From positions 1 through 53,272 of IMG/VR virus record IMGVR_UViG_3300048837_000676: a stretch of 53,272 nucleotides of DNA; one strand, 5' to 3'. Below are positions 1 to 53,272 of the stretch, piece by piece. Below the pieces are notes generated by a model. The model was not told the origin of the DNA. It made no database searches and saw only the letters and a list, made by a program, of their open reading frames with translations. Origin of the DNA: a virus. The position numbers were made by a program, and so were the translations under genes. Each line of letters starts with the position of its first letter. Position 1 is the stretch's first letter.

Positions 1-3000
1 TCGGTGGAGACCGTTTTCTGCTGTTCGGCATCCAAGCTAGCAAACCAGTCGCTGCTGGCTGGCGCAGTGGCAAAGCCCTTCGCCCATGCCGCCACGGCTT
101 CGCGAGTCTTCGTCAGGGTGGGGGGGAGCTTCTGCCCTGTCCGCTTGGCGAACTCGGCCCGCCATGCCTTGTTGTCGGGGTAAAGCATTTCCGTCATCGC
201 ATCCACGTCACCAGCCTCGTAGGCTTTGTCGAACATGTCGCGGCTCTTCTGCGGCAACCCGTCGAAAGTAGGCGTGGCTTTGGCAGTCGGAACCGGTTTT
301 TTAGCCACATCTGGGGCGGACGGGCCGTACCGCTCGATGTACTTGTCAATCCCTTCGCTTGTCGGGACAACCTTCCATCCCTTGCCCCCATGTACTTTGA
401 CGACCTGCATCAACGAACCGTTCTTGCTGTCCTTCACGGCTTTGTCCGCATCTCGCCGCAGGGAGAACCTCGCATTGCCCTGCATCAAGGTGTCGCCGAA
501 TTTCAGCCGCCATGCGTTCCGTTCTTCCGGAGTCATCGCCAATAGTACCGTGGCTTGGTCGAGGCGTTCTTTGGCCTTCTGCTCGGCGGCGGACTTCTCG
601 ATAGCTCTCCTTTCGGCAATCTGCTTCTGGTATTTCTGTGAAGCGTTCTTCGCTTGGTCAACCACGCGCTGAATGTCTTCCGGCCAGATACTGGCGTTGG
701 CGATTCGCTGAAGCCAATCCGCAGCGGCAAAGTCTTCGAGCGGTAGTCTCTTGACTGTCTCTCTCGCCTGCTCTTTTAGCACGACGGAGCGGACAGTAGC
801 CAGTAAAATTTCGACAGCATTGTCTCTGCTCATGCCGGTGTAAGACTTGGACTCCTGCTGCATGGCGGCGATTTCCGCCTCGGTCGCGCCAAGCTCTTTG
901 CCCCGCCTGTCGATTTCGGCGTCAACCAGCTCTTGCGTTTGTGCCCAGGTCAGTTCGCCAAGTCTTTCTCTGGCTTTGGCCGCAACAATGGGGTTCCCGT
1001 CTTCAATGTCGTCTTCCGCCCAGGCTTGCCGCATCGTCTTGGCAAGCTCTTTCGTCTTGGCGTAAATCGCATACGATTCCTCGGATAGCTTTCGTGCCTT
1101 GCGCTCCGCTTGTTCCTGCGCTTTCGTACCTTGCTGTTTCTTGTCTGCGGCGTCATCGGCTTCTCGCGCTGCGACCGCTGCGGTGTCGCGAGCGATTTCC
1201 GCATCCCTCCATTCGGCATCCATCTTTTCACGTTCCGGAGTCCCCTTGCGAGGAGTCTTCCGATCAATGGTCTGCTGCTTCTTGACAGGTTCTGCTTTTG
1301 GCGAACTCGACTCTTTGGCTCTGGCGGGCGGAGGGACCAACGGTTTTTCGCCTCGGGGAACAATCCTCGAAGCCTGTATTACCTGGTGTTCTGCTTCCCC
1401 TAGCCTGCGCATCAACCGTTCGCGCCATCCCAGCACGGCATTGGCCATTCTCTCGATCTCGGCAATTCGGTCCTGCGCATCGGCAACCGCTTCTGCCGCT
1501 TGTTTTCGCTGGGGACTGTCAAAGCCATGCTTGTACTCGGCATCTTCCTCTTGCAACACCAGCTTGTCAACAGTGCTCCTTTGGTCGTCCAGTAGATTGG
1601 CAAGCCGAAGAATTTGCGGGACAAGCGACTTCGGGAGGCTGTCCAAATTCTCTACATCATTCCGCGAATGCCAAATATCCTTGGCGATTTCCCCCACCGC
1701 GCCCTGCGGCTCGCTCTCGAATGTTTCGCCGCGCTCAATCTCGCCTTCAAGCTGGTCGATCCGCTTGCGGATTGACTGCATCACGCGAGTCCAGCTTGTG
1801 CGGGTCGTCGCAGCTTTGATTTCCTGCTCCAGCCGCTGGAACGGGTCGCGCATCTCAGGCACATCCCTGGGTGCGGATTCAACTGCCGCCTCGCCTGGTT
1901 CGGGAGTCGTCCAAGGGGCTTGGTTGGCTGCGCCAGGTGCAAGTTTCGCGGCAGGATCGAGATCGGGGTACTCGGCAAGGACTTCGGCAGGGACCAAGTA
2001 GCCCTTTTGAATGGCATCGCGGACCACATCGCGATGCTGCTTGGCCGTTTGCACATAGACGAGACCCTTGTGGTCGGGATGCTCCGCCTCGCGGACCACG
2101 CCAGCATTCACCAAGTCACTGTTCTCCCGCAACCAGTTTCGGACAGTCAGGTTGTGGTTATCCATCGCGGCGGGCATGTCGGCTACGCGCCTATTGCGGG
2201 TGTCCTGCGCCTCCCCCATTGCCTTTTCGAGCTTGGCGAGTTCGTCCTGCGCTTTCTTGATGGCCTCGACGGAATTTGCCTTGGAAAGCTGGTCCCGGGC
2301 CTTGCCCATTCGCTGACGGATGCTTGCGATGGTTTCATCTACGGCAGAAGTCCCGCCGCTGAACGCCAGTCCCGGCATGGATTCGAGCCGCTTTGCCAGC
2401 CAGTCGCTGTATTGGCCTTGAGTCATGGCCCATAGGCGCGGCGTTTCCGGCTTGCCGTTCGTCGGCGTTGTCGCCGCCAACCCGGATTCCTTCGCCCCTT
2501 CCGGCTCCTGCCCTAATTTCGCATCGTCGCCAGATTTCGCTCGGTACACATCGTCCCAAGGGGGAAGCATGTCGAGAACCGCCTGCGCCTTGGCCCGGTA
2601 ATCTTCCTCGCTGAAATAGGTGCCGATGGCTGGCCGGTCAATGCCGGCTCTCTCGGCATGGGTGAAAATGCTTTGCATCGCGCTCTCGAACTTGCGTTTG
2701 CGCTTGTCCGAAAAACGCCCCGTATCCGGGTCGCCGAGAATATCCTGCACGGCCATGTGGAGCCGATACGCAGACTCGATCCCCCTTTTGGTTTTCGGCA
2801 TGGCAACGCGGCCGCTGCGGCCAGAATCTTCAGCCGTTTCCTCCGGTAGCCGTCTATATTTCTCCGCCTCCGCCCAGTCGAGAAGCCAGCCTTTTGTCTT
2901 GCTCCACGTTGGGGGCAGCTTCTTCTTCGTAACCCGCTCGAAATAGGCGCGAGCCTCCTTGTTGTCGGGCTTGAGCATCGTGCCCAACGCCTTAGCGTCG

Positions 3001-6101: not shown

Positions 6102-6130
6102 ATCGGCACCTCGAACAAGGGTGAGGAATT

Positions 6131-7945
6131 CTAGCGGAAAGACTCTTGCATCGGCAAACGGAAACGCTGCGGCTGAGGTTCGGCGCGGGATGCGAATCTG
6201 CGTTTCAGTTCCTCCATGATTTTTTCGGCGTTCCCGTCGTCGGATTCGAGACGCTCGGCTATCCGCCCTTTTTCCTTGTCGGTCAGGCGCGGCCAAAACT
6301 CCTTGAACAAAACGGCAGCATCCGCGACGAATTCATCTCTCGTCTTTCCCGTTTTCTTCACCTTTCCGCCCGCTTGCGTCTTCCCGCCCGCTTGCCGTTC
6401 CAGTTCCTCGATCAGTTCGTCAATGGTCGTCTCGCCTTTGGCCAGCGCATCGGCCACCTTCTGCCGCTGGGCGGCGGTCATGTTCGGCCAGTACGGCTTG
6501 AGGTCGGCATCGGGCGGCTGCATGTCGGCAGTCTCCACCGCCTGCTCCTTGCCAAGCGGGCTCTTGCCGCCCGCGTCTTTCGTCCCGCCCTGCGCCTTGC
6601 GGATGACGGTCTGGACCTGCCCGAGCCGTTTTTCGTATTCAGACACCACGCCTTGCAGGCGCTTGGCCTCAGCGGCGAGGTCTTTGTCTACCCGACCGAA
6701 CCAGCCCTTGCTTTCCTCCACGGCACGTTCCGCCGACGCAAGGTCGGCCTTGGCGCTGTCCAGCAGCGCGGCCAGCGTGTGGCCCGTCGCCGCATAGGCG
6801 GCATCGGCATCGGGCAGGCCGCGCTCCAGGAAGTAGTTCACGCTGTCGGCGTAGAGCGTCCCGGCGGTGGTCATGCCGCCGTCCTCGCCGACCAGTTCGC
6901 CGACCTTGAACCCGCCTGGCGTCCGGGCCGTCATGCCCAGGTACGCGCCAACCTGATCCTTTGTCATGTTGCCGGTGGTCCCCGCCCGCGCCGCGCCACG
7001 ACTGCCGCCTTCCGTTTGCAGAGCCTCCCCGCCGCTCTGGAATTTTCGGGGATCGACCGGTTGGCCGGACGCTTCCGCCGCCTGCATCATCGCCTGCCAG
7101 CGGGGAAGGCGCGGGTTCTCGCGCTGCACGTCGGCCAGCGCGGCCCTGAAGAACGGATCGGCGGCAAATTCGCCAACCGCTTCCTCGACCTGCCGCAGCA
7201 TCGTCGAGTCGCGCAGATAGTCGGCCTGCGTTTGCAGCCCTCTCGCCCGCGCCGATTCCTCGCGCTCGATCAAAGCCCGTTCCTCTTCGCGCCTGCGCCG
7301 CTCAAGCTCGTACCGCCGGTCCTCGCCGCGCACACCGCCGCCGAGAGGCGAACGGGGCTCGCCGGAAAAACCGCTGCCCAGCAGCCTTCGCCGTCCGGTG
7401 CCCTGCGCAACGAGCCTCCCACCCTGCAACGTTCGCCGCCCGGTTTCCGGGCTCGTTCCGGTTTCCCATTCCCGGTCTTGCCTGCGCCAGTCCCACGCTT
7501 CGTTCCGGCGTTCGGCATCGGTCGCGTCCCGCTCCATGTCGAACCGGCCACGCTCAAGACCAAATCGCCCTTGCTCCATGCGCAAGCCATGCGCCTGCTC
7601 GTCCATTCGGAGACCCTTCCGGGCCATTCGCTGGCTGAAGTTCTGCGCCCGGTTCTGCAAGGCGATCTGCGCCCACTGCCGAAGAGCGGCGTCGCGCTGG
7701 AGAGCATAGCTCGCGTTCTGTTCCTGCCCGACCGCATAGCCACGCTCACGCGCCGCCGATTCGCCCGCAATGGAGTCGCGGGCCATCGTTGCCCGCGTAC
7801 CCGCGAAACGCCCGCTGTTGGGATTGATGCCCATGCGGGAAAGCCCACGGGACATTTCGCCGCCCGCCCGGTCGTAGGAGGCCCGCACAGTTGCCCCGGC
7901 GCGGTTCGCATAGCTCTCGGGGCTGGGAAGTCTGAATCTGGTCAT
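6131..7945 (-). CDS. Putative internal virion protein with RFRLP motifs at both ends
   Basis: This 604-aa protein starts at ATG 7945, 7 nt after AGGAGA-like Shine-Dalgarno bases; the longer frame upstream overlaps the preceding gene and is not used. The first half is highly charged, with Arg/Glu/Gln-rich repeats (LERGRFDMERD and similar), probably long helices. The second half contains several short helical blocks with P.LT-type repeats (PYWPNMTAAQRQKVADAL and FWPRLTDKEKGRIAERL). The sequence RFRLPxxES appears at residues 3-11 and again within the last 11 residues. It sits directly before the giant gene, at the end of the structural operon, as internal or ejected core proteins do in podoviruses. 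I do not recognise a named family, so the function is inferred from position only. Confidence 0.75.
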   Translation of the reverse strand: MTRFRLPSPESYANRAGATVRASYDRAGGEMSRGLSRMGINPNSGRFAGTRATMARDSIAGESAARERGYAVGQEQNASYALQRDAALRQWAQIALQNRAQNFSQRMARKGLRMDEQAHGLRMEQGRFGLERGRFDMERDATDAERRNEAWDWRRQDREWETGTSPETGRRTLQGGRLVAQGTGRRRLLGSGFSGEPRSPLGGGVRGEDRRYELERRRREEERALIEREESARARGLQTQADYLRDSTMLRQVEEAVGEFAADPFFRAALADVQRENPRLPRWQAMMQAAEASGQPVDPRKFQSGGEALQTEGGSRGAARAGTTGNMTKDQVGAYLGMTARTPGGFKVGELVGEDGGMTTAGTLYADSVNYFLERGLPDADAAYAATGHTLAALLDSAKADLASAERAVEESKGWFGRVDKDLAAEAKRLQGVVSEYEKRLGQVQTVIRKAQGGTKDAGGKSPLGKEQAVETADMQPPDADLKPYWPNMTAAQRQKVADALAKGETTIDELIEELERQAGGKTQAGGKVKKTGKTRDEFVADAAVLFKEFWPRLTDKEKGRIAERLESDDGNAEKIMEELKRRFASRAEPQPQRFRLPMQESFR

Positions 7946-9201: not shown

Positions 9202-10068
9202 CTACACCCCCTCCGGACATTCGAAGTCTTCGGCACCGGCAAACGTCGTCCACCCGGATTCCGTGCCCGGATCGACAACCTTCACCGTCCGGGTCTTGTA
9301 TTGCAGCGCCCCCGTCGTTGCGTCCTGTCCCACCGCCGTCACCACAGTCACCGTCGTGAAGGAGGGCACACTCGGGATGCTGATGCCATTGATTGCCTCC
9401 CGCACTGCCTGCTCGCTCGGCACGTTGGCGTCCGAACCGGGACTCCCTACCGTCGTCACCACGTAAGGCACACTCGGAATCGCCGCCCGCACTGCCTGCT
9501 CGGTTGGAATCGCCGAGGCGCTGCCCGGCGCGCCCACCGCCGTCACCACATCCCACAGCCCCGGAGTCCCCGCCGCATGGCCGGCCAACTGATCGGCGTT
9601 CTCGTTGTACCCCCCCACATCGATCCCGTTCCATCGCACAAGTAGCGTTCCGGGGTCTTCACCTGCTTCCACCTTGATGAAAGCCCCGTCTCCAGTCAGC
9701 TTGTCGGCAAGATAGCCGGGGTTTTCGTCAGACGACGAGATGCCGACCCGCTCGTCGGTCGAAGCCCCGCCGCCTGCTGAACCACCGGAAGACCTAATTT
9801 CCAGCGTGTCGCCAGCCACGCGGACTTCCACTCCGTTGCGCCCGCGAACGCGCCGGAACCCCAATTTGTCGCGCACCAGGCCGGCGAACACATCCGCGCC
9901 GTCGCCGATGTTCACGCCGTCGGCACTTCCATCGATGGCTGTCGCCCCCGCGGATTCCAGATACCGGAGCACCTGCACAATCGCGTCCAGGATGCGGCGA
10001 ATCTCGAAATCGCGCACGGTGTTGGTCGAGGGGATGGAACGCACCCGTTCCGGCATGACTCTAGCCAT
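9202..10068 (-). CDS. Tail-fibre-type protein with EQAVRxAI repeats
   Basis: A 288-aa protein. The start chosen is ATG 10068 (MARVMPERVR), which overlaps the end of the nozzle-like gene by 8 nt. Residues 1-80 look like an adaptor (TVRDFEIRRILDAIVQVLRYL, then a Gly/Asp-rich stretch). The second half has two tandem units of the form V..VG.PGS....P.EQAVR.AI...PSVP, a motif frequent in phage fibre and baseplate-associated proteins. A Thr/Val-rich C-terminus ends in CPEGV. It probably forms an elongated beta-rich or trimeric appendage. The family role is inferred from the repeats and neighbours, not from a named domain. Confidence 0.75.
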   Translation of the reverse strand: MARVMPERVRSIPSTNTVRDFEIRRILDAIVQVLRYLESAGATAIDGSADGVNIGDGADVFAGLVRDKLGFRRVRGRNGVEVRVAGDTLEIRSSGGSAGGGASTDERVGISSSDENPGYLADKLTGDGAFIKVEAGEDPGTLLVRWNGIDVGGYNENADQLAGHAAGTPGLWDVVTAVGAPGSASAIPTEQAVRAAIPSVPYVVTTVGSPGSDANVPSEQAVREAINGISIPSVPSFTTVTVVTAVGQDATTGALQYKTRTVKVVDPGTESGWTTFAGAEDFECPEGV

Positions 10069-12526
10069 TGCGCACCTCCGCCATGCTGGAAGCCGCCGCG
10101 ATTTCGTAGACGGTCGCCGTAGATTCCACTTCGAGGCTCCAACGCAGACAGCGCCCGTGGACCGGGATTTTCCGCGCCTGCCCGTCGGTCGGCACATAGG
10201 TGCCCCGTAGCAGTCCGTCGCCGTATAGCCGCAAACGAACGGCCCCGCCGTAGGCGGATGCGCGGACCTGCGCAACCACCCACCGGGCCGGGCGGGGCAG
10301 CACAAACTCCCGGCTGCGCCAGACCAGCGAACGGGCCGTTCCGTTGTCGGGACTCCAGATAACAAGGTCGCCCGCCGCGTCGATGGCATACAGGCTGTCT
10401 GTCTCGTCGTCCCGGTACAGCGCCGTGATTCCCGTGTCGTCCGCCGTCGTGGCCGTGTTCGCGCCCTCGCCGAAGTCGAGCAAAAGCGCCCCTTCCGAGT
10501 GAAAGCCGACATACGCGCCGTCCTGGCCAGCCGCAAGCAGGCTGGCGGGCGTGATGCCATTCCAAGTAGGCGCGTCGAAAAGCCCTTTCGTCGCCACGCT
10601 GGCCCCTCCGCCCAGAAAGGCACTGAGACCGTCAGGGCCGGGGGAGAGGACTAGACTCCTCACCTGCGCGACGCCGCGCTTTGCAAGTGCCCTTTCGTCG
10701 TGCATGATCTGTGTCTGAGTCATGTACTGCGGCTCGGACCCGGACAGCAGCCACGGGGTCTTCTCCGTCAGGACGAAAAGCTCGTTGCCGCTTGCCTTGA
10801 TCGCAACAATCTCATCATGGAACGCGAAGCGGTAGCCTTCCGGCCATGCCTCCGGGCGATAGGCAAGGGAAATCCATACCTCGCGCCCCTTGAACGCGGC
10901 GAAGTAGCCGCCGGGCAGACGGCATAGCCCCGCCAGAGCATCGTCAGGCGGCAGCACGTCGGGTTCCAACACTTCACCGAGAAGCTCGTATGACTTTTCC
11001 GCCAGGGCGTATTCCCAGGTCAGCACACCGTTGTCGGCAGCGGCGGACCCCTTCACGGATGCGTTGATCGTAGCCGATTGCGACGGATCGTCAACCGGCA
11101 CGTCGGCGACAAAACGCCAGTCGCCCGCGCCGTCCGTCTGGTATACCCGCTTGGTGACGATTCCTCGGTCTGCCCCGCCGGTCGGGAGTTGCACCGGCAT
11201 CCACACTTTGCCGACTTCGCCGTCCTCCACGACCAGTTCGCCGCTTGCTTCGCCGACCGGTCCCTCTTCTCCCCATTCGGTCACATAGGCGTAGCAGTAG
11301 CGAGGAAACGCCTTGTCGTTATTGGAGAAGCTCCCTTCCAGGGTGATCGTCGCGTTGAACTTGATCGTGATGGCATATCCGCCTTCCGGGCTGAGCGGGT
11401 CGAGAAGCTGGGCCTTTTGCCATACGGTGTTCACCGTCATGGTGGGGGAGACGCGGACACCGCTATCTTTTTTGGCAATCTCCGTGTCCGCGTCGTCGTG
11501 ATCGGTACCATTCGCCAAGTCCTCCTCCCACATCGGATAGTTGATGGAGTTGAACACCTTGTTGTAGGCGAACGACTGCACCCGGTTGCAGTAGACCCAT
11601 TTCGGCCCCCCATCGCAGTCCGTGCAATGCACCTTGACCACGAACCGGTATTCCTGCCCGGAAACGAGGCTCGACGAACTAAATGTGGCACTTGCTGTGA
11701 TTTTTCGTCCGTCCCGTTCCCATGCCGAAAAGCTGGTTCCGGCCGCCGAGGGGGCAGCGCCCGCCGTTTCGACGTACCATTTAATGTCGTCGAACGCAAG
11801 CTGCGGCGCAGCCTCGACAAGCGGTGCTCTGTCGGGCTTGGGAATGGCGAGGTCAAAGGTCTTTGTCGTCCCGGCGTCGTACCCGCGCACCTTTGGTTTC
11901 CCGTCCCCGGTCCAGTAGATGCGGCTGTACTGGTCGGAAGCTACGGAGCTGCGGACCACATCGACATCATTCGCCCAGGTCAGCCAGCTTTCCTTGGCGG
12001 CGTTGTCCAGCGTGGCCGCAGCAACCAGCCCGTTCAGCCAGGATGCCCCGCTGATGTCCGCGCCGGAGTCCGGGGCGGAAAGCGCCGTCACTTCGCCATT
12101 GCACCAGAAAATGAACTTGTTCGTCGCCCATTCCACCCGCTCGATACCCTCTGTCTCCTCCCGCAGCTTCGTCTGGATCGCGACGGCGATTCCTGCCATG
12201 TCCGTTGCGGCGGAGAAGGTGGGAGCGATGCTGTATTCGGTCCCGTCGATGGAAATCTTGAAGCCGGGATTCGTCAGCGCCTTCCACGCCGAAACCGTCG
12301 TGCTGCCCGCCGTCCCGCACGTCAGTTTATGCTCGTCGTACTCCCAGCGGTACAGCCCCTTATGGCCAACCGCGCCAAGCTCGGACACTACGCTGTTCCG
12401 CCGCAGAGGAACCAGCTTGCCGGACGACAATCGGCAATTCCGCGCCGTCTGCGCCATATGGTCGGCAAGCGCTTCCGGGTCAACGGCCGGGGCGATTCCG
12501 CCGAATCTGTCCAGAGCGATGTGCAA
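10061..12526 (-). CDS. Putative podovirus tail nozzle/tubular protein
   Basis: An 821-aa protein starting at TTG 12526, about 10 nt after GGAGG; no better ATG is near. The N-terminus (RFGGIAPAV...AQTARNCRLSSGKLVPLR) is a signature seen in large podovirus tail proteins placed after the adaptor genes. The middle holds fibronectin-like sequence (YAYVTEWGEEGPVGEAS) and the C-terminal 350 residues hold repeated beta blades (GYFAAFKGREVWIS, NELFVLTEKTPWLLSG, DSLYAIDAAGDLVIW), suggesting a propeller. This resembles the layout of T7 gp12-like nozzles, although direct homology is not shown. It follows two short connector-type genes, which supports a tail-tube or nozzle role at the portal vertex. Confidence 0.7.
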   Translation of the reverse strand: MHIALDRFGGIAPAVDPEALADHMAQTARNCRLSSGKLVPLRRNSVVSELGAVGHKGLYRWEYDEHKLTCGTAGSTTVSAWKALTNPGFKISIDGTEYSIAPTFSAATDMAGIAVAIQTKLREETEGIERVEWATNKFIFWCNGEVTALSAPDSGADISGASWLNGLVAAATLDNAAKESWLTWANDVDVVRSSVASDQYSRIYWTGDGKPKVRGYDAGTTKTFDLAIPKPDRAPLVEAAPQLAFDDIKWYVETAGAAPSAAGTSFSAWERDGRKITASATFSSSSLVSGQEYRFVVKVHCTDCDGGPKWVYCNRVQSFAYNKVFNSINYPMWEEDLANGTDHDDADTEIAKKDSGVRVSPTMTVNTVWQKAQLLDPLSPEGGYAITIKFNATITLEGSFSNNDKAFPRYCYAYVTEWGEEGPVGEASGELVVEDGEVGKVWMPVQLPTGGADRGIVTKRVYQTDGAGDWRFVADVPVDDPSQSATINASVKGSAAADNGVLTWEYALAEKSYELLGEVLEPDVLPPDDALAGLCRLPGGYFAAFKGREVWISLAYRPEAWPEGYRFAFHDEIVAIKASGNELFVLTEKTPWLLSGSEPQYMTQTQIMHDERALAKRGVAQVRSLVLSPGPDGLSAFLGGGASVATKGLFDAPTWNGITPASLLAAGQDGAYVGFHSEGALLLDFGEGANTATTADDTGITALYRDDETDSLYAIDAAGDLVIWSPDNGTARSLVWRSREFVLPRPARWVVAQVRASAYGGAVRLRLYGDGLLRGTYVPTDGQARKIPVHGRCLRWSLEVESTATVYEIAAASSMAEVRNG

Positions 12527-33740: not shown

Positions 33741-33741
33741 G

Positions 33742-39071: not shown

Positions 39072-39524
39072 CTAGAAAGCACCCTCTTTCCAGCCGGAAG
39101 CGGCGGTCTTCGGCGGCTTGCCCGCGTCGCTGGGGTCAAGAAAGCGCTTGATCTCGGTATACTTCTCGCCGTTGTACTCGCGGATGCCGGTCTTGCAGCG
39201 CCCCGTCGCACCGGGCACCGTGTTCCAGTCCATGCGCAGCGCCTCGCCGTGCTTCCGCGCGCCGATGCTGCGGAAGAACTCGCACAGCAGCCCCTCGGTC
39301 TTGCTGTGCAGGTAGAGGCGGTGCTTGGTGAAGGCCGTGCCGTGCTCGCCGCCGTCGATCTCGATGGAGAGGACAGCCATGTTGCAGGGGGGGAGCTTCT
39401 CGGACCCGGCGAACCGGCCCCGCTCGAAGCCCTTCACCTTGAAGTCGTAGTCTCCGACGGGAAGGACAACGAAGTCCTCGCCGTCGTTCTGGATCGTCTC
39501 GTTCCAACCGTATTCGCGTTCCAT
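39072..39524 (-). CDS. DUF669 single-strand-binding-like protein
   Basis: A 150-aa protein whose ATG directly follows the stop of the Sak4-like gene. The pattern YGWNETIQNDGEDFVVLPVGDYDFKVKGFERGRFAGSEKLPPCNMAVLSIEID is characteristic of DUF669, a phage family commonly next to recombination genes and considered single-strand-DNA-binding-like. A second half carries HRLYLHSKTEGLLCEFFRSIG and GRCKTGIREYNGEKYTEIKRFL. Likely partner of the RecA-like ATPase next to it. Confidence 0.82.
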   Translation of the reverse strand: MEREYGWNETIQNDGEDFVVLPVGDYDFKVKGFERGRFAGSEKLPPCNMAVLSIEIDGGEHGTAFTKHRLYLHSKTEGLLCEFFRSIGARKHGEALRMDWNTVPGATGRCKTGIREYNGEKYTEIKRFLDPSDAGKPPKTAASGWKEGAF

Positions 39525-40646: not shown

Positions 40647-40648
40647 GA

Positions 40649-40903
40649 CTACTTGTCCTTTCTGAACATGTTCGCGATGATCTGTTTTTTGATTTCCGTC
40701 ACCAGTTCGGGCGGCGGAAGGGAATTCGTCGGCTGTCCGTTCGCCTTGCGCAGTTCCTGGATCAGCACCTCGGCCTGGGGCAGGGGAATCCCCTTCTGCT
40801 CCAGAAACCGTTTGAGGTCTTCGGCCTTGGTGTTCCAGGTGCCCACCGCCAGCCATGCCGCCTCCTGGTCGATCCGCTGCGCCAGCATCTGTAGAGTCGT
40901 CAT
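40649..40903 (-). CDS. Small hypothetical recombination-operon protein
   Basis: An 84-aa protein from ATG 40903. Helical: MTTLQMLAQRIDQEAAWLAVGTW, TKAEDLKRFLEQKGIPL, AEVLIQELRKANG, and a Lys-rich end (EIKKQIIANMFRKDK). It sits between the RecF/SbcC-like ATPase and the Sak4-like gene. A small co-factor role is possible; no family recognised. Confidence 0.6.
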   Translation of the reverse strand: MTTLQMLAQRIDQEAAWLAVGTWNTKAEDLKRFLEQKGIPLPQAEVLIQELRKANGQPTNSLPPPELVTEIKKQIIANMFRKDK

Positions 40904-40905
40904 GG

Positions 40906-42192
40906 CTAGAAGCTCCCCGGCACGAACTTGGGCTTGGCGTCGGGCGCGGTGAGCGTCCCGGTCCCGTCCTCGATGATGATCGAGCACTCGTCACCAGTGC
41001 TCACCCGGGTCGCGATGGCCTGCAAGCCCTCGGACTCCAGCCAGTCGCCAAACTGGCGCAGGCTCCGCAGGTCCATCTGCTCCAGCTTGTCCAGCAGCAC
41101 AAAGCCGCAGTCCGGGTTCAGACGGCGCACGATGGCCGTCGCCACCTGCAACTGCTCCGCCCCGCTCATGCCGTCCCAGGGCTGGCCCCGGTAGAAGAGA
41201 GCGCCTTCCGCCACCGACAGGCCCGGCATCGGCAGGTCCGCGCCGTCCAGCAGAGCCGTCTTCTCCCGGCGGGTCTCGTCCAGCCTGGCGGTCAGTTCGT
41301 CGTACTGCTTCCGGTGGCTGGCGGCGTCCTCGATGGCCTTGGCTTTGTCCAGGTTGGCCCGTACCTTGGCGTTCGTCTCGTCGATCTCCGCCAGCCGCTG
41401 CTCGATTTCCGCCGTGCTGGCGTCCTCCAGTTCGCTGGCCGACTTGCTGGCCGTCTCGTAGTCGGCGGCGATCACCGCCTGCCGTTTCTCGGCTTCGGCC
41501 AGCCGACCACGCAGGGAAGCCACTTCGCCGTCGATGGCCTTCAAGTCCATCGCCAGCCGGTCCACCCGCTGCCGCTTCCTCTGGTTTTCACCGTTGCGGG
41601 CCAGAATCTCCTGCTGCTCGCGGATCAGTTCCGCCGCAGTGACCGGCACGTACGGGGCGTCCGCGAAGGCGGGAAGCTCGTCCGCGAACTTCTGCTTGCG
41701 GTCGGCAATCTGTCCGGTCGCGTGGCGCTCGCTGTAGATGCGCTGCTCCGCCTGCTCAAGCCGGGCCAGTTCCTCGCCCACCCCGATCACCTGGAGCAGC
41801 GTTTCCGCCTTCTCCCGCGCCGAGGCGTTCAGAAACTTCGGCAGGTCCAGGGCGAACTGGTGGACAAAGGCGTCCAGCAGCTTCTGCCCGCCCCGGTTCC
41901 CCTGCGGGTCCGTCACCTTGAGGGCGCAGTTCTTGCCCTTTCGCTCCACCACGATGCCGTTCGAGAGCGTCACCTTGATCTCGGGGGGAACCAGCGAGCC
42001 GTCCCGCTCCGCCTTGCTCGGGCGGTAGCGCTCGCCGCCGAGGGCGTAGGCAATGGCGTCAAGGACGCTCGTCTTCCCCTCGCCGTTCGCCCCGCCGATC
42101 ACCGTCAGAGCCTGCCCGGTGCAGTCCAGCCGGACGGCCTTGACCCTCTTGAGATTCTCCACTTCAAGCGCATTGATCTTCACGTTGCCCAC
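40906..42192 (-). CDS. Small RecF/SbcC/Rad50-type ABC ATPase
   Basis: A 428-aa protein. GTG 42192 follows AAGGAG by 8 nt. N-terminal Walker A GGANGEGKTSVLDAIAYALGG (residues 33-53) is typical of SMC/RecN/RecF proteins. A long coiled coil spans residues about 140-310 (LARLEQAEQRIYSERHATGQ, EVASLRGRLAEAEKRQAVI). The C-terminal ATPase half has signature MSGAEQLQVATAIVR and Walker B GFVLLDKLEQMD. It is much shorter than SbcC and lacks a zinc hook. No SbcD-type nuclease gene is adjacent. It probably acts in recombination or repair with the Sak4-like protein. Confidence 0.85.
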   Translation of the reverse strand: MGNVKINALEVENLKRVKAVRLDCTGQALTVIGGANGEGKTSVLDAIAYALGGERYRPSKAERDGSLVPPEIKVTLSNGIVVERKGKNCALKVTDPQGNRGGQKLLDAFVHQFALDLPKFLNASAREKAETLLQVIGVGEELARLEQAEQRIYSERHATGQIADRKQKFADELPAFADAPYVPVTAAELIREQQEILARNGENQRKRQRVDRLAMDLKAIDGEVASLRGRLAEAEKRQAVIAADYETASKSASELEDASTAEIEQRLAEIDETNAKVRANLDKAKAIEDAASHRKQYDELTARLDETRREKTALLDGADLPMPGLSVAEGALFYRGQPWDGMSGAEQLQVATAIVRRLNPDCGFVLLDKLEQMDLRSLRQFGDWLESEGLQAIATRVSTGDECSIIIEDGTGTLTAPDAKPKFVPGSF

Positions 42193-43845: not shown

Positions 43846-43891
43846 ACTTTTGATCTTGGTGTATGGTGGTGTTGCATCGGGAGTTACAGCC

Positions 43892-44233
43892 ATGAAAAAA
43901 CCTACTCCGGAAATCCGCAGAGCAATCGATTTGTGCATGGTGGATCGCGGGTTGACCGCTCGCGAGCTTGCCTCAATGGTTGGCGTCGCAGAGAGCTCCA
44001 TGTCAAGTTGGCGGTCGGGGAAGCAGAACATAGCGAATCCCCACTGGGCCAAACTCCGAGAGATTCTCGCTCCCTATCTGGATTCGCCCACGCCGGGGAG
44101 TTCCCCTAGCGCCGTGTCTCCCGGCGACGTGTCCGGATTCTCGACCGTTCCCGTGATCTGGATTGCCCGCGCCGCCGACTACGAAGCCTGCCTTCAGTCG
44201 GTCACGATAACAACCACATCGCCGTCAGGCTAG
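43892..44233 (+). CDS. XRE-type repressor-like regulator (the only plus-strand gene)
   Basis: A 113-aa protein from ATG 43892 (MKKPTPEIRRAI) behind a GGGAG sequence. The helix-turn-helix is LTARELASMVGVAESSMSSWRSGKQNI, followed by NPHWAKLREILAPYL. The C-terminal 45 residues are not a LexA/CI protease; they form a short beta part (FSTVPVIWIARAADYEACLQSVTIT). It is divergent from the early operon and convergent with the giant gene; the two stop codons overlap in the tetranucleotide CTAG (44230-44233). It could maintain lysogeny, set the early/late switch or give immunity. Confidence 0.82.
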   Translation: MKKPTPEIRRAIDLCMVDRGLTARELASMVGVAESSMSSWRSGKQNIANPHWAKLREILAPYLDSPTPGSSPSAVSPGDVSGFSTVPVIWIARAADYEACLQSVTITTTSPSG

Positions 44234-47200
44234 AACGACCGGGCCAGTCCCCTTCCGGTGCCGCTTTGGAAGGACCGGCGCAGACTCTTGCCGGTCCCGG
44301 CCCTGCGTTCTTCCTCTGGAATGAAGCCGATCTCGCCAGGATCGTCCCGTTCCGCCAGCCCGGCCCGAATCCTCTCCCGTCGTTCGATGGTCTCCATTCG
44401 CTTGAGCTGGGTCTTGATGCTGGCCTCGGTCACGAACGAGACATTGCCGTGTGCGCTGGCTCGCACTCTGGCGTTGTAGAGTTCCACGTCCAGCAGAATC
44501 TTGGCCCATTCACCCTTGCCGCCGCCGGACAGCTTCCACCGCCGCATCCTGGTGTATAGCTCTGTCCGCTCGTCGCGGTACGCGCCCTCCGCCTGTCGGT
44601 CCTTCCATTGACGCTCTCGCTTCGCGGAGATTTCCGCCGGGTTGAATGCAAGGCTACGCAGGAACGCATCGTACCAGCTCGCCCGCAGACGTTCATCCCC
44701 GTAGTAGAGTGGTTGATTGGTGTGTGTGGTCACTCCCTCGGTTGCCTCGCGCAGTCCGCGCATCGGGCCTTGTAGCATTCGAGGGGCTAGCCGCTCCGCC
44801 CCTTTGTAGAGGTCGCCGCGAAGAATGTCGCCGAAGCCGTATCGGGCATCCTCGAACAGGGAATAGGGGGCTCCCAGCAGGTCTTTGAGATTCGTCGGGA
44901 TGTCGGTGATTCCAATGGCCAGCGAGCCCTTGAGGTTTACGCCGAGCATGCCGGGAACCCCCATGCGGGGGATTCGCCCGAAATAGTCGCCGAATTCCTC
45001 TTCGGCCCATCGGTAGAACGCCTCTTCCGGGTCGTCAGGGGGGGGCTGTCCAAAGGCGGCGAACAGCGCCTTCGCCATCAAAGCGAAGGCCGGGGTCGCA
45101 ATCATGGCCGCCCCGCCACCGAAGACAGCGGGCGAAAGCATCATGTAGGCAAAGGCTTTGGCGCTCGCCGCCCGGTCGTCGCCGAACAGGGCGTCGTAGC
45201 CCATCTCGCTCATAGTCTGGAGGTAGGTATGCGAGAAAGTCTTGTACATGTAGAAGCTGCGGGCAGTCTGCGCTCCGACGGACGGGCCGCGCGCCCATGC
45301 CGGGAGATTGACCTTTCCGTAGACGCCGTGCGCCTTGTCGCTGATCTCCTTGGCCTGTTGCAGCGCCGCATCCTGCTCGACGCCCTGCGCCCGCAGGCCG
45401 TAGTACGTGGCCGCAATCGTGCTGGCCCGGTTGATTCGTTCGGTGACACTGAACGGTAGCAGCGCTTTCTCGATCAGCCATCCCCAAGCGCCACGCGCCT
45501 TGCCCTGCAACACGCCGACGGCCTCCCGGTTCATCAAGGCGTCGTCCCAGCCGCGCTTGGAAATCTCGTCGAACAACCATGCGTCCTCGCCGGCCAGCCC
45601 TTCACCCTTGCCCCATCGGGCATGCGAGTAGTGCTTCCCGTAGTTGGTCGCCCCTCTGGTCAGCAGCCCGGCGGCGCGAGCCAGCGGGATTTTGCCGTAG
45701 TGGAGCATGGCGGCGGGGACCGTCGTCCCGAGCGCCGTCATGTTGACCAGCGCCGGGGCGATGCCGGACAGGTGCTTGATGGAGGCGACGCCTTTGACCA
45801 TGCCGAAGACCCGCTCGCTGGATTCTTCATTGCGAAGCATGTCGCGCATGAAGGCGGTGCCTTCCCGATATGCTTCCGGCTGGGTGGCCGAGTCGATTCG
45901 CCGCTTGTCCACTTCCGCGCTGTACGCTTTCCACACATCCTGCATGGCTTCCGGGTCGCTCCGGTCGATCTGGTTTGCCAGAATGTAGCCGTCGCGGAAT
46001 TCCGCCCAGCCGATGTCGGTGCCCGTGATCTGGCGCATCATGTCCCGCGCCATCATTCGCTTGGCGACTCCGCCCGCAGTCGCGTGGCCCGCCATAGCCA
46101 GCGCACGGAGAGCGTCGCGTTCGTAGCCGACGCGAACCTCGTCCCCGGTAGCCTGCCGTCGCCCGATTCGCCGGGACAGACTGCCTCGGCTCTGAATCAT
46201 GCCCGCAAGCTGTTTCACGAACGTGTTGGCGAAGGCTTGGGTAAGCTCGACTTCCCCGAACTGGTGCGCTGTCATGGCTTTGGCAAGTTGTCCTTCCAAC
46301 CCCTGTTTTGGATTGGCGAAATGCCAGACGTTGCCGGTGTCGGTCTGGCCGTCGTCGTAGAACCGGCCTCCGAAGTCCTTGAAAATCGCCGCCCAGGTGC
46401 CTCGTTGCGGAGCGTCGATTACCAGATGCCGTTCGGTCGTGCCGTCCTTTCGCGTGTAGGTGACTCGCGCCGCCGTCATGCCGAAGCCTTCCAGCGTGGC
46501 TTTCGCCCCGATCTTCTCCATCCGCTGCACGGCGTTGGCCACTGCATCGTTGAGCGCCACCAGATTCATGTCGAGGAAAGCCGCTTCGCTCGGGGTTTCG
46601 CTCAGAGACAAGCGGGCCGAGTAGCCCTGCTTTTCGAGGCTGGCCCGCCGCGCCCGCCGACTCAGCGGATTGTCGAACGCCTCCGTGATGGGCTGCTCGC
46701 CGTCCTTGTCCGCGTGGAGTAGATAGCGCCCGGTGCGAATGCGCGGCATGTAATATCCCCGGCGGTCGCCCATTTCCCGGATCGCTTCGAACAGGTCGAT
46801 AGTCCCGCCGTGCCCGTCGTCCATTTCCGGCATCGGCAGACCAAGTTCGTCCATCTTGGCTTTCAGTTCCTCGGCTTCACCCCGGATCATGTAGTACATC
46901 CGGTCGGCGATTTCCCGGTACTTGGACACTGCGAAAGCGGCGTCCTTCGAGAAACCGTCCGCCAGCAGGTCTTTGGACTCCAGCAGGCGGGCGTGTTGCC
47001 ATGCCGCCGCCTCGGTGTCATGCCGCGCAACCTCGTTGCCACCCGGGTTGATGACCGCCCAGGATTCCGAATCCGTCTGGCGGGCCGAGTAGCCCTTGGC
47101 GTCCATGTCGCGCTGCACAAGGTACTCGTTTGCCCGCTCCCATTCCTTGGGATTCCGGCGACCAAATTCGCGAATCAGCGCCAGGTCGCCTTCGCCTGTG

Positions 47201-50200
47201 CCAAAGATTTGCTCGCCCAGCCGGTGTTTGTTGTCGTTGTGCCCAAGCGCCGTGTCGAACATGCGCCGGAGAGCGGGGACTTTGGCGGCATAGTGCGAAA
47301 TGGTACGAAACACCGTGTCGAGGGGGGAGAGGTCAGGACGGGCATTCGAGTCTTTCACCCGGTTGTCGAAGAACCTTCCAAGCCAACTGATGCCTTCGCC
47401 CACCGCTACACGCCACGACTTCTCCGCTTCGGGTTCGGCCAAGCGGTAGTCGTAATCGCCGTCCTGTCCAGGAGATTTGACAGAATGCCACCACTGGTAT
47501 ACCTTGTTTCTAGCGAGGCCATCTTGCGTAACCCCCCGGTTTGTTACCGGGTCAGGTCCGGCAAGGTGGCCTTTCTCTATGATGCCCATCCAAGTGATGT
47601 TGTGATCGTGGTAGCGGTCGAAGACTTCCAGCCCTTCCTTCAACTCGAAGGTGGTCAACTGCATATAGACTTCCTGCCCGTTGATGGAAGCCTTAACCGC
47701 GTAGGTGTGCCACATTTTGATGTTGGCATACTTTTTGGGGTCTTTCTCCTGTTCGGAATAGATGTGCATTGCCTGTTCGAGCATGGCAGGCAGTCCGGGA
47801 ATTGCCCGCATGATGCGCGGGTCGGCACTGTGCGACGCTGGCTTTCCAAACTGGCCTAGGCGGAAAACGAATCGTCTCCCGTCCCGGCGGTTCACCACTG
47901 CGTTTTGCACTTCGCCGTGCCGTTCCACCAGCTTGGCGTACTCCCTACTGCCAATCTCTATCAGTCGGCTTCTGTCCCCCTCTTCCCCGAAGGCCGAAGT
48001 GTCCACCACTACTGGCGGCATGGTCCGGACCGCCTCCCGCTTCTCCCAATCGCTCATCGCGTCGGAGCGCCGGAACGTCACCTGCTCTGCGTTTGCCGAA
48101 TCCCGCGTCGTGCTCCGCTTCGCATATTCGCCAGCGAGAAGCCGGTCGTAGAAGTCCAGCAGCTTATCCGCGTCGCGGGCAGTCCCCAGGAACGAGCGGA
48201 GCCGACGGAGCAAGCGAGCCACGAATTGACGAGCCTTGCCGACAATCCCCCGGCCATCGCGGGCGTACTGGATAATGCCCTCGGCCCGCGCCTCCGCGTC
48301 CGGCATGGCATTGCGCAGGCCGGCCAGTTCGTCCGGCGTGAGGAACAGGTCTTCCGCCCGGTGGACGGCTTCGTGCAGAACCGTGCTTTCAGGGTCGCCC
48401 TTGCCGGTGGAAATCTCCGCCCAGCCGTCGCGGTAGCGCCCCATTGCCTCCCGCCCGTCCGGAGTCAGGATGTTGTCGCGAAGAGTCAGCCATTCGTCGC
48501 CGAACAGCCGCTTGCCCAGGGCAAGAAGCCGCGCCTTGTCGGCAGGGCCGAGGGATTGCGAAACGTCCTGGAAGCTGATGCCTTCCCCCGTGCGGTACAA
48601 CTCCACGCCCCGGTCGGTCTCGCGGGTCTTGATGGTGGAAACCAGTTTGTCGAAAAGGGCGTTTGTCGCTTGCCGTTCTTCCCCGAACGGTGCCCACGCG
48701 GATTCCGCCTCTTCCTCCGCTGCGCGGGTAAGGTACGAGTTGCGGATGTCGATCTCAGCCAAACGGTCCCCGACGAAGGCGTTGAATGCACGGGCGAACA
48801 TTTCCGGGGAGGTAGCCCAGTAGCTCTTCCCCCCCTTCAGCCCGTCCATCTCCTGGGAACTCTTCAGGTATTTAGAATCGGTAAGCGCCGGTTCGTGGGT
48901 CTTTTGGTGCGCAGCGGAATCGGAGATGTACAGAAGGTGGTTCAGGTTCCCCTGCAACCCGTCAATCTGCTGTTTGCTGTACTTCTCTCTCTTGGCGTTG
49001 CCAGCTTGGTAGAGGTCGCGCATCTGCTGGACGACAGGAGATAGGGTATGGGAAACGTTGCGCCCGTTGACCACCGTCTGCCCTGCGCCCCCAACGTCCA
49101 GAGTGCGGACTTTGTTCGCCAGCTTGTCAAATGCCTCGCCGTAGGTGGTAGTCCCACCGTCTCCGTCGGGGACCTGCTGGGATTCGTCCATACCCTGCAT
49201 GAAGTCGCGGCGGATGCTGGCCAGCCAGCTTTCCATGTTCTTCCGCCCCTTGTCCATGTTGGCTTGGTGCTTGGCGGTCAAATCTTCCGGCGTCATGGGC
49301 CGCTGGCGCATCGCTGTGACCAAGTCCCTGAAGATGGCGACGATTTCCGGGCGCAGCCCGGAGAATGCCGCAGTCCGGTAGTGGGATGTCATAAAGGGGT
49401 CGCCGCCCCGATCAAGGCCACCTTGGCGGGCGAAGTAGTGATCCAACCCGTGCGCCCACTCATGCGCCAGCGCCCCTGCCCCTGCCGTGCGGGTAAGGTT
49501 GATCTCGTTCACGCCAGGCACGAAGTGGGCTGCGTAGACTCCGCTACCTTGGGCACCAAACGCGAGGCCAAGTAGACCGTTCAACGACATTGCCTGCGGT
49601 GGTACTCCCATGACGGCGGCAAGGTCCATGAACGAGTCGTAGGCATGGTTCAGGTGCAACTGGCGCTCGGCTTCGTTGGTGTTGCCGTGCATCCAGTTCC
49701 CGAAGTTGACGCCTTTGAACCCGAACGTGGTCTGAAGCATCTCGCTGGTGGCGTCCACGCCATCGGGACGGCGAGAAACACCAAAGCGGCTGGCTTGCGC
49801 CACGGCCATCCCCTCTTCCGCTATACGGGTCTTTCCCTTCGGTGCCGTTGCTCCCTTTGCGGCGGCAGACGCATCGGCTTCGGTATCGTGGACGCTCACT
49901 TTTTGCCCGGACTTGTTTAGGAGGACGTATTTCCCCTCCATCTCTGCGCGGGCCTTGTCCACCTCTGCTATCACTTTCGGGTCGGTGACTGACGTTGCGT
50001 CGCTGATGATTACGCTGGAGATGGACCGAGCGCTCGCTCCTCCGCCATCGATTGCGAACCGCACACTGACCATAGGTATGCTGGCCCCTCCTGGTTTGGC
50101 CCGATTCCAAGTAAACGGTGCCGCAACCAGCTTGTCTACCAGCATGATCTTGTAGCCACGACGCTGCCAGGCTTCCGTTTTCGCGGGCCAGCCAAGACCA

Positions 50201-53200
50201 ATTTCCTTGCTGGCTCGGATGGCTTCGTCCATCCCCGGCTGAAGGGAGGAAATGAACTTGTTCCCTCCGAGAATCATCACTTCCTCGCGCCGGGTTCTCC
50301 ACCCATCCGGGTAAACGGCCCCCAGCGGGCGCACCACGTTGGAGGTTTCAGACATGAGAGACGAGACAGAAAACGGCCCGGCCTGTAGGCGGCGTTCGGC
50401 ACGGGTTCCCAAATCGCGGACGAATGCCTCCCCGCGTCCGTCGGTAGCCCACTCGTTGATGGCCTGCATGACCCGGTTCACGCCTTCGATGTACTGCTGC
50501 AACTGAGCGTCGGTCGGAGCGCCGCTGGTTGCGGGCTTGGCCGCGATGCCGTCGTATGCCTGTTTCACCATGTGCGCGAGAACGGGATTCATCCCGTCCC
50601 CAACCATTCCCTCGTAGTCAGGCTTCGGAGACACTTTCTGCTTGGTCGTTTCGCGGACACGCAGCGCGGTTTCCTTGCCTTCGAGGTCCGCCCACTTGAC
50701 ACCCGTGATAATTCGGTTGCGCTTGTTGTAGACGAGTTCGGTCCCCACGTCGGAGGTGCGGGACTCATTTACCCGCTTCGCCTCTTCCCTGGCTGCGGCC
50801 TGCTTCTCGATGGAGTCGTTGAACTTCTTCGCTTCGTCTCGTGCTTGGCGGGAGACGCTCTTTCGATGTTCCTTCACGTCCGCGATAGACACAAACCGCT
50901 GCATGTTGCCCCACTCCACCCACAGTTCTTCCCCCGATTTCTCGGGATGCACGGATAGAACGTCGAAAGCCGTTTCCCCGGCAGCAAGGTCAACGACCAC
51001 CACGTCGTTTACATGAATCTCGCTCAGAGGCACACCGTCCTGCGTGGTCAGCACGGCGACCACGGGCGCGACACTTCGCTCCGGAAGTTGCAGCGCCACC
51101 ATGTAGTTCTGCACCTCTTCATACTGCGCGGGGTCCAGCCGACCGAAGGTTTCTCCGGGATAGGCATTGGTGGCGTCGTTCAGCATTCTCAAGGTTGCCA
51201 CCCGAGCGGCGTTGTGCGCCATTCGTTGCTGTTCCTGGACGCTGCCATTGCGGGCACGGTCCGGTTCGGTAAGGCGAAGTTCCGGACGGGGGGGCATTGC
51301 TCCCGATGGCTTGGCTTTTTCTTCGGGTTGCGCTTCTTTCACTCGCACCGGAGCCATGCGAACATCTTCGGCGTTGACTCGGGTTGCGCCTGGGCCGGGT
51401 TCGGAACCGGGCAGGGATACGTTGAACAACCGCCCCTGATTTTGTGCACTCCGGATTTCGTAGGGACGCCATGCGTACTGCTTCCGCCCGATCTGTGTCC
51501 TGACGACAGCGGGAACGCCGTACAACGCGCCTTGCACTTCCGGCGAGTCCATGTCCAGCCCCACAATTGCTTCCTCGGCGGAGACGTACCCAGCGGGGAT
51601 TTCGCCGCTGGTGGCGTCCGCCGTCGCTTTGACTGCCTGCGGAGCGGTGGGGGCTTCCGCTCCCGTCAGACGCTTGATGCTTTGCGCTTCCTGTGCGCTG
51701 GGCTGGAATTCACCGAAGTATTCGACGAATGTGGTGGCACTGTCATTAGTCCCGATTCGGTTGCCTCCATCCGTTTGCCGGGTGATGTAGCCGTGCTTGC
51801 CATCGGCAAACTGCCGGGCTTCGCGCAAGGTGTCGAACATGCGGGTTTCAGAAGTTCTACCCACATTGGCCTGCTCGGTCCAGTTGACAAACCACGCCAG
51901 TTTTTCTCCCTTGGCGGGGATGGTGGGTACAATCGGTGGCTCCCAAACGTTTTTGTCATATCCCCATTGCGTCCACCCAATTTCGCGAAGGCGCGACTCA
52001 ACTGCCGTTCTGTTTTCAGCAGGGGCATAGGTCTTTTCCCCCCTGTTATCTTTGGGGAACCGCCAATCGCGAAGCGTGATGCTCCCTACTCCTTGTCGAA
52101 CGGCATCGTCTACGTCTGACGGGACAGCATGAAATAGGTTGATCCTCCCAATGGACTTGCCGGGAGACCCTTCCGGTCTCGTTTGAATTTCCAGCCCAGA
52201 TTTAGACTCAGGCGCGGGCTTTGCCGCTTCCGGCAGCGTCTCCGGCGTATAGTGGGAAGGCTCTCCGTTCGCAAAGTGCCGACGCCCAGAAGACGCATGG
52301 ATTTCGTCGGGGTCGTAGGGTGATGGGTCCGAAACTCGATCAAACCCGTTTGCCACATAGCCACGAACGTCTTCCACATCCGTCCCGTCAACACGGGCCA
52401 AATCCCCGTCCCGGTTCTGAGCAAAAAATGAGAAGGAAAGCGGCCTGCCGGTTTTTCCGTAATTCAAGTTGGCCGCCGCTTTGCGACTTTCAACTGGCGT
52501 TTCAGCGGCGCGAACGATCCTCTGCTCCCGACCTTCTTCACGGTTCTTGGTTTTTGCCGCAAAGGCATAGGCTTGATCCAGCCATTCCTTTTCCTTCTTT
52601 GGCGTAACCATCTTTGTTAGCCCAAGTGCGGTATGCAGGTGTTCGCGCCCATAGACGCGAACACGGCCCTTTGCATCGGCAACGTACCAGGCATGGACGA
52701 TTGCTCGGCCGCATTCGGCGCATGGCATAGCCCGATCCCAGTCGCTAACCATCGCTGCCTTCAACCCCCCGTCCGCGCTGTCTTTTTCGCCTTCGCGACG
52801 AACATGGACGTGGGCCAACAACTGCGATCCGTTTTTTCCGTCAATACCGGTTCCAAACACATCCACAACGTCGGTGGAGCGGTTGGCTGTAGGGAAGTAG
52901 ACCACCCCTTTGCGGTGGACTTCCTGGCTCGCCGGTTCCTGTACTACTGGCTTTGCCGCGTTTAGGAGAGAACGCATTGTGTCGTCGATCAAAGGGTCGG
53001 CCGTTCCCTCGTCCCGTTGCCACATTGTGTCACCGGGGCGTTTCGCGTTGTGATTGCGCACCCACTCCCGCGCCAATTCCTTCGCGGCGGCGGCGGCTTC
53101 CTGTGGCGACTTTCCCCGGTTGACCTTGGAAAGCATCTCGCGAAGCACGTCCGCTTTGATTGATTCGTCAAACCTGGCCGGGCCGACAGGGAGAGTCCCG

Positions 53201-53272
53201 CCTGGCTCTGCAAGTTTGCGATCACGGTTGAAGTATGTTTCCTCCTCTGCTCTGATTCGACGCATCTCGGTG
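44230..53272 (-). CDS. Giant phage polyvalent protein, C-terminal part (open at right edge)
   Basis: An open frame enters at the right edge and ends at the TAG at 44230. Numbering from the first Met (53265), 3,011 residues follow; codons ACC and GAG precede it in frame. CxxC at 182-185 with nearby His191/209/211 suggests a zinc site. Residues about 1183-1277 match the LPD1-like polyvalent domain: GFKGVNFGNWM, SLNGLLGLAFGAQG, INLTRTAGAGALAHEWAHGL, with HEWAH at 1268. A second metallopeptidase-type motif VLHEAVHRAED starts near 1630. Residues about 1785-1900 (RRDGRRFVFRLGQFG, WHTYAVKASINGQEVYMQL, FDRYHDHNITW) resemble a BECR-fold nuclease. Hydrophobic stretches at about 2490-2520 and 2700-2740 could insert in membranes. 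The end resembles PLxRFG-type phage proteins. Joined to 1-6101, it gives 5,045 residues. Confidence 0.85.
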   Translation of the reverse strand, partial: TEMRRIRAEEETYFNRDRKLAEPGGTLPVGPARFDESIKADVLREMLSKVNRGKSPQEAAAAAKELAREWVRNHNAKRPGDTMWQRDEGTADPLIDDTMRSLLNAAKPVVQEPASQEVHRKGVVYFPTANRSTDVVDVFGTGIDGKNGSQLLAHVHVRREGEKDSADGGLKAAMVSDWDRAMPCAECGRAIVHAWYVADAKGRVRVYGREHLHTALGLTKMVTPKKEKEWLDQAYAFAAKTKNREEGREQRIVRAAETPVESRKAAANLNYGKTGRPLSFSFFAQNRDGDLARVDGTDVEDVRGYVANGFDRVSDPSPYDPDEIHASSGRRHFANGEPSHYTPETLPEAAKPAPESKSGLEIQTRPEGSPGKSIGRINLFHAVPSDVDDAVRQGVGSITLRDWRFPKDNRGEKTYAPAENRTAVESRLREIGWTQWGYDKNVWEPPIVPTIPAKGEKLAWFVNWTEQANVGRTSETRMFDTLREARQFADGKHGYITRQTDGGNRIGTNDSATTFVEYFGEFQPSAQEAQSIKRLTGAEAPTAPQAVKATADATSGEIPAGYVSAEEAIVGLDMDSPEVQGALYGVPAVVRTQIGRKQYAWRPYEIRSAQNQGRLFNVSLPGSEPGPGATRVNAEDVRMAPVRVKEAQPEEKAKPSGAMPPRPELRLTEPDRARNGSVQEQQRMAHNAARVATLRMLNDATNAYPGETFGRLDPAQYEEVQNYMVALQLPERSVAPVVAVLTTQDGVPLSEIHVNDVVVVDLAAGETAFDVLSVHPEKSGEELWVEWGNMQRFVSIADVKEHRKSVSRQARDEAKKFNDSIEKQAAAREEAKRVNESRTSDVGTELVYNKRNRIITGVKWADLEGKETALRVRETTKQKVSPKPDYEGMVGDGMNPVLAHMVKQAYDGIAAKPATSGAPTDAQLQQYIEGVNRVMQAINEWATDGRGEAFVRDLGTRAERRLQAGPFSVSSLMSETSNVVRPLGAVYPDGWRTRREEVMILGGNKFISSLQPGMDEAIRASKEIGLGWPAKTEAWQRRGYKIMLVDKLVAAPFTWNRAKPGGASIPMVSVRFAIDGGGASARSISSVIISDATSVTDPKVIAEVDKARAEMEGKYVLLNKSGQKVSVHDTEADASAAAKGATAPKGKTRIAEEGMAVAQASRFGVSRRPDGVDATSEMLQTTFGFKGVNFGNWMHGNTNEAERQLHLNHAYDSFMDLAAVMGVPPQAMSLNGLLGLAFGAQGSGVYAAHFVPGVNEINLTRTAGAGALAHEWAHGLDHYFARQGGLDRGGDPFMTSHYRTAAFSGLRPEIVAIFRDLVTAMRQRPMTPEDLTAKHQANMDKGRKNMESWLASIRRDFMQGMDESQQVPDGDGGTTTYGEAFDKLANKVRTLDVGGAGQTVVNGRNVSHTLSPVVQQMRDLYQAGNAKREKYSKQQIDGLQGNLNHLLYISDSAAHQKTHEPALTDSKYLKSSQEMDGLKGGKSYWATSPEMFARAFNAFVGDRLAEIDIRNSYLTRAAEEEAESAWAPFGEERQATNALFDKLVSTIKTRETDRGVELYRTGEGISFQDVSQSLGPADKARLLALGKRLFGDEWLTLRDNILTPDGREAMGRYRDGWAEISTGKGDPESTVLHEAVHRAEDLFLTPDELAGLRNAMPDAEARAEGIIQYARDGRGIVGKARQFVARLLRRLRSFLGTARDADKLLDFYDRLLAGEYAKRSTTRDSANAEQVTFRRSDAMSDWEKREAVRTMPPVVVDTSAFGEEGDRSRLIEIGSREYAKLVERHGEVQNAVVNRRDGRRFVFRLGQFGKPASHSADPRIMRAIPGLPAMLEQAMHIYSEQEKDPKKYANIKMWHTYAVKASINGQEVYMQLTTFELKEGLEVFDRYHDHNITWMGIIEKGHLAGPDPVTNRGVTQDGLARNKVYQWWHSVKSPGQDGDYDYRLAEPEAEKSWRVAVGEGISWLGRFFDNRVKDSNARPDLSPLDTVFRTISHYAAKVPALRRMFDTALGHNDNKHRLGEQIFGTGEGDLALIREFGRRNPKEWERANEYLVQRDMDAKGYSARQTDSESWAVINPGGNEVARHDTEAAAWQHARLLESKDLLADGFSKDAAFAVSKYREIADRMYYMIRGEAEELKAKMDELGLPMPEMDDGHGGTIDLFEAIREMGDRRGYYMPRIRTGRYLLHADKDGEQPITEAFDNPLSRRARRASLEKQGYSARLSLSETPSEAAFLDMNLVALNDAVANAVQRMEKIGAKATLEGFGMTAARVTYTRKDGTTERHLVIDAPQRGTWAAIFKDFGGRFYDDGQTDTGNVWHFANPKQGLEGQLAKAMTAHQFGEVELTQAFANTFVKQLAGMIQSRGSLSRRIGRRQATGDEVRVGYERDALRALAMAGHATAGGVAKRMMARDMMRQITGTDIGWAEFRDGYILANQIDRSDPEAMQDVWKAYSAEVDKRRIDSATQPEAYREGTAFMRDMLRNEESSERVFGMVKGVASIKHLSGIAPALVNMTALGTTVPAAMLHYGKIPLARAAGLLTRGATNYGKHYSHARWGKGEGLAGEDAWLFDEISKRGWDDALMNREAVGVLQGKARGAWGWLIEKALLPFSVTERINRASTIAATYYGLRAQGVEQDAALQQAKEISDKAHGVYGKVNLPAWARGPSVGAQTARSFYMYKTFSHTYLQTMSEMGYDALFGDDRAASAKAFAYMMLSPAVFGGGAAMIATPAFALMAKALFAAFGQPPPDDPEEAFYRWAEEEFGDYFGRIPRMGVPGMLGVNLKGSLAIGITDIPTNLKDLLGAPYSLFEDARYGFGDILRGDLYKGAERLAPRMLQGPMRGLREATEGVTTHTNQPLYYGDERLRASWYDAFLRSLAFNPAEISAKRERQWKDRQAEGAYRDERTELYTRMRRWKLSGGGKGEWAKILLDVELYNARVRASAHGNVSFVTEASIKTQLKRMETIERRERIRAGLAERDDPGEIGFIPEEERRAGTGKSLRRSFQSGTGRGLARSF

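Follow-up and report, generated by a model that had tools for sequence, protein, structure and literature searches.

A phage genome record probably cut inside a single giant polyvalent-protein gene

We analysed the whole of virus record IMGVR_UViG_3300048837_000676, 53,272 bases, as a single stretch (the window). With a probability that we put at roughly 0.88, its sequence represents a complete or near-complete tailed-phage genome whose circular map was cut by assembly inside its largest gene. The frames at the two edges would then encode the N-terminal and the C-terminal portion of one giant polyvalent protein, the last of the virion operon, and this protein measures about 5,045 aa provided that no sequence has been lost at the junction. 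We also think it likely that the two ends meet directly, although we hold this part less firmly and as a matter of judgement rather than computation. The single gene is well supported, and the exact values of 53,266 bp and 5,045 residues are less so because the junction is unconserved and unspanned by homologues. At the level of sequence, the strongest support for the join is the homology of both halves to single open reading frames (ORFs); gene continuity in relatives, gene order and domains make up the directly observed part of the explanation. The features on which the argument draws are listed below.

1-6, no strand: terminal overlap TCGGTG, left copy, from the sequence
1-6101, minus strand: 5′ half of the giant gene (joined residues 1-2033), start ATG at 6101; ORF open to the left edge
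6131-7945, minus strand: probable virion protein, directly upstream of the giant gene (weak match to PHROG 8003, virion structural protein; N-terminus kept upstream of the giant gene in relatives)
10061-12526, minus strand: internal virion protein (PHROG 511, 3.4e-94; homologues upstream of the giant ORF in relatives)
14876-15799, minus strand: major capsid protein (PHROG 267, 6.4e-43)
17375-19324, minus strand: portal / head-tail adaptor (PHROG 332, 1.1e-48; PHROG 1216, portal; IMG/VR relatives 61-70% identical)
19480-21057, minus strand: terminase large subunit, start codon uncertain (PHROG 2, 3.5e-11 for 19480-20796)
26317-26829, minus strand: terminase small subunit, first gene of the late operon (PHROG 51, 3.2e-19)
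43850-44233, plus strand: convergent probable HTH regulator (PHROG 4, 2e-5; HTH_3 below cut-off)
44230-53272, minus strand: 3′ half of the giant gene (joined residues about 2033-5045), stop TAG at 44230; ORF open to the right edge
53267-53272, no strand: terminal overlap TCGGTG, right copy, from the sequence

Record ends and the in-phase join

The hexamer TCGGTG at positions 1-6 recurs at 53267-53272 and is the sole terminal overlap of the record; the original prediction had pointed to these identical ends, and we found none longer. Minus-strand frames are open at both edges (3-6296 on the left, 44230-53271 on the right). When the 6 bp are collapsed, the edge frames fall in phase and read ...TCC ACC GAG ATG CGT.... 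Recomputing the joined frame, from ATG 6101 to the stop at 44230, gave the 15,138 nt and 5,046 codons that had been predicted, encoding 5,045 aa. In the 3 kb around the join this frame contains 0 stops, compared with 14-28 in each of the other five.

An end overlap of at least 6 bases arises by chance with a probability of 0.00068 (0.07%), as estimated from random sub-fragments of the same sequence. Given the long minus-strand coding bias, the chance of an in-phase join is about 1/3; we therefore rejected frame agreement alone as proof of the join. We likewise rejected the 6-bp overlap as an assembler k-mer trace, since three relatives overlap at their ends by 127, 97 and 45 bp. The TCGGTG overlap is notable by its rarity, yet it is no assembly signature, and the longer overlaps of the relatives indicate that circular maps occur in the group.

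Searches centred on the junction itself were negative in the collections covered. An exact 26-bp junction pattern found no spanning record in viral_contigs, where three single-protein scans (right half, left 999 aa and junction-side right 657 aa) also found no junction-spanning close relatives. Protein searches of the phages collection returned no homologue aligned across the junction (one match, E 0.2), and the left half as a protein query against genome_contigs gave no match. The junction thus sits in an unconserved stretch with no homologues detectable in searches of viral_contigs and the phages collection. A 50-residue unit (ML.PDNK..R..F...T..KLPPT..KT) occurs twice in the giant protein, at 3-650 (-) and 2403-3200 (-), with 46% identity (E 1e-9); its second copy ends just short of the junction.

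Both halves in single genes of relatives

Left and right halves were used as separate queries. Both matched one and the same ORF, in order: the left half around and after its InPase domain, the right half at the C-terminal part. Four named phages carry both halves in one ORF: Mwe-JY07 (4,985 aa), POI1126 (4,841 aa), Atu_ph08 (4,877 aa) and PEp14 (4,914 aa). The order of the halves is the same in Skulduggery, with a weak left match (6e-4). Stop-free ORFs with both halves are also present in the IMG/VR relatives G006 (4,368 aa), G007 (4,641 aa) and G010 (3,375 aa), and a further relative, G008 (4,690 aa), matches both halves (left 2.1e-12) with one stop listed within the span of the right match. 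An ORF of the same 3,375 aa as in G010 lies in a 2.4-Mb contig of Desulfospira joergensenii DSM 10085 and, because it stands in a contig of that size, is no permutation artefact. The expectation that relatives would have one gene rather than two separate ones is therefore borne out by these uninterrupted ORFs, and by upstream neighbours that lie beside the right-half homologue. The one exception is PBC5, whose annotation shows two ORFs in tandem (2,185 and 2,849 aa), a split that may be genuine or stem from a sequencing frameshift.

Gene order bears on the same point. The neighbours of the left half and the right half itself lie at opposite ends of the linear window, and are therefore adjacent only if the map closes. 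In five lineages (L177/L185, L178, L179, L186 and L184/L188), homologues of the genes at 10061-12526 and/or 6131-7945 are located upstream of the ORF homologous to the right half, at most a few kb away. The late operon of the window runs on one strand in the order terminase small subunit, terminase large subunit, portal, major capsid, virion proteins, internal virion protein and giant gene. Its predicted course from 26829 through the origin to 44230, against a convergent regulator, holds as a gene order, with a weak match for the regulator; the stops of the regulator and the giant gene overlap as CTAG (44230-44233). As bait, the internal virion protein gene (10061-12526) gave no match, and the portal relatives are on 8-12 kb contigs that end before the giant gene.

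Could the ends instead belong to two different giant genes on a linear fragment, or to a chimeric contig, with frame and overlap agreeing by chance? The overlap is just 6 bp, and the minus-strand coding bias would yield an in-phase join in about a third of cases. Nevertheless, we consider this very improbable, since several relatives have a single ORF whose N-terminal part matches the left half and whose C-terminal part matches the right, and since gene neighbours stand side by side as on the closed map. A less remote concern, though still an unlikely one, is that circle and single gene are as we propose but that sequence is missing between the ends. Gene and genome would then be longer, and the gap could hold a helicase/methylase core. 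G006 and G007 have methylase and/or helicase domains in the zone of the join, 6 bp is no assembler k-mer length, unlike the overlaps of the relatives, and several relatives' records are 56-60 kb. On the other hand, chance would seldom produce a 6-bp overlap that is also in phase (0.0007 x 1/3), the core is wholly absent from G001, G002 and G010, and 5,045 aa already exceeds the giant proteins of all relatives measured. The exact length of the gene is without a template, because the closest relatives of the right half are shorter giants that lack InPase (2,543-3,068 aa). Of the original claim of a circular 53,266-bp genome with a 5,045-residue gene, homology and synteny uphold the closure of the map with both ends in one giant gene; the exact length, which depends on a 6-bp overlap in an unconserved stretch, stands on less secure ground.

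A map that closes within one giant gene has a precedent in the isolated phage Itty13 (NC_070969.1). Its ends share no overlap; once joined, they yield a single 4,756-codon frame on the minus strand that runs from 12337 across the origin. The giant gene of Itty13 spans 1-12337 and 59885-61818 of that record. Its deposited annotation contains an end fragment only, plus gp01-gp03 called on the opposite strand inside the giant gene. Giant genes of this type, and records cut within them, are already known, and the present case adds a further record of this sort rather than a new kind of system. Its interest is twofold: homology and synteny can reveal closure in a contig that has hardly any terminal repeat, and a giant gene split by the record origin, as happened with Itty13, can be taken for two.

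Domains and relatives of the giant protein

The 5′ half contains an InPase domain at residues 712-845 (Pfam PF18823, 179.7 bits against a cut-off of 26.8), and PHROG 10089 (DarB-like) matches this half around the InPase region. The 3′ half carries LPD1 (57.7 bits) and LPD3 (32.4 bits; Pfam cut-off 27 each), has two HExxH motifs at joined residues 3302 and 3665, and ends in a C-terminal PLxRFG / tail-700 domain (NCBIfam NF032893, 114.1 bits against a curated cut-off of 100). From this multi-domain make-up (InPase, LPD1, LPD3, HExxH, PLxRFG) we class the product of the gene among the phage large polyvalent proteins described by Iyer et al. 2017 (PMC5512222). Several domains of the enzymatic and LPD types, unrelated to one another, stand on the two halves joined by homology. 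The gene also adjoins the late virion genes, as the last after terminase, portal, capsid and internal virion protein, and phage polyvalent proteins sit near virion genes (PMC5512222). DarB, by comparison, combines helicase and methylase in one chain, and domains of this kind are present in G006 and G007. Neither half of the window's protein has a Pfam match to a helicase or methylase domain, so filing it as DarB is unwarranted despite the match to PHROG 10089.

The closest named parallels are giant genes of Bcep22-like and related phages, described as 'DarB-like antirestriction': JC1 gp69 (4,515 aa), PEp14, POI1126 gp30, Mwe-JY07 and Itty13. The virion gene order of Bcep22-like phages (Lessievirus and kin), ending in a giant gene, is also that of the window, and in PEp14, POI1126, Mwe-JY07 and JC1, as here, one giant gene closes the virion operon. 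Homology to this group covers the InPase region and/or the C-terminus, in the same order, but C-terminal identity is only about 24-27%, and the window's protein differs from DarB in having no detectable helicase/methylase. The 3′ neighbours differ as well, with a convergent regulator in the window and lysis genes in PEp14. At the nucleotide level, a megablast search of the phages collection with bases 1-25000 of the window found no match, to Bcep22-like phages or to any other. The JC1 genome is circularly permuted (PMC9144972), and pac-type headful packaging has been predicted for Parlo (PMC6606913).

The prophage-like giant gene of D. joergensenii DSM 10085 resembles that of the window in combining InPase, an LPD1 region and a PLxRFG-type C-terminus in one ORF, in which helicase/methylase were likewise not found. 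It is shorter by about 1,670 aa, and it carries MuF_C and RadC, neither of which appears in the window's protein. The best C-terminal match, 50% over about 1,040 aa, is to an ORF of 2,880 aa on the Verrucomicrobia UBA6056 contig (L186/G013). Homologues of virion genes lie upstream of the giant ORF in this contig and in the Lentisphaerae contig L185, as they do in the window; the giants of UBA6056 and Lentisphaerae (L185, L190) are, however, shorter ORFs without an InPase match. These closest giant-gene relatives among the genome contigs come from Verrucomicrobia and Lentisphaerae assemblies, which is a hint at the host, with binning errors possible.

How such a protein might act is suggested by analogy. 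The JC1 giant protein was found in purified virions by mass spectrometry, with 51 unique peptides (PMC9144972), and by the precedent of gp69 the protein of the window may be carried inside the virion and enter the host together with the DNA. MPTase domains have been proposed to process phage polyvalent proteins (PMC5512222). In the same way, one of the HExxH metallopeptidase-like modules may cut the giant protein into pieces, and pieces such as the InPase domain could act on host nucleotides or pyrophosphate early in infection. The PLxRFG C-terminal part would serve virion association. Only tentatively, and with more doubt than belief, we suggest that the 5,045-aa protein has lost the DarB helicase/methylase core and is a self-processing, injected polyprotein built around InPase and metallopeptidase-like modules, with its nearest giant-gene relatives in Verrucomicrobiota and Lentisphaerae assemblies. 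The gene extends the phage polyvalent proteins by an example that lacks a helicase/methylase core.

Other genes of the window

Among the ORFs scanned, none was recognisable as an endolysin, holin, spanin or integrase gene, and tRNA and Rfam scans found nothing. A membrane-like ORF and a coiled-coil ORF at 33564-34254 (-) may be lysis genes. On the same strand, 35000-42192 (-) forms a replication/recombination block that encodes a DNA primase, a DEAD/SNF2-type helicase, a Sak4-like annealing protein and an SbcC/SMC-like ATPase, and the gene order of this block recurs in L089 and L072. Finally, 31320-32231 (-) contains a phosphoadenosine phosphosulfate reductase-like gene (PF01507, 80.6 bits), and JC1 likewise encodes one (PMC9144972).
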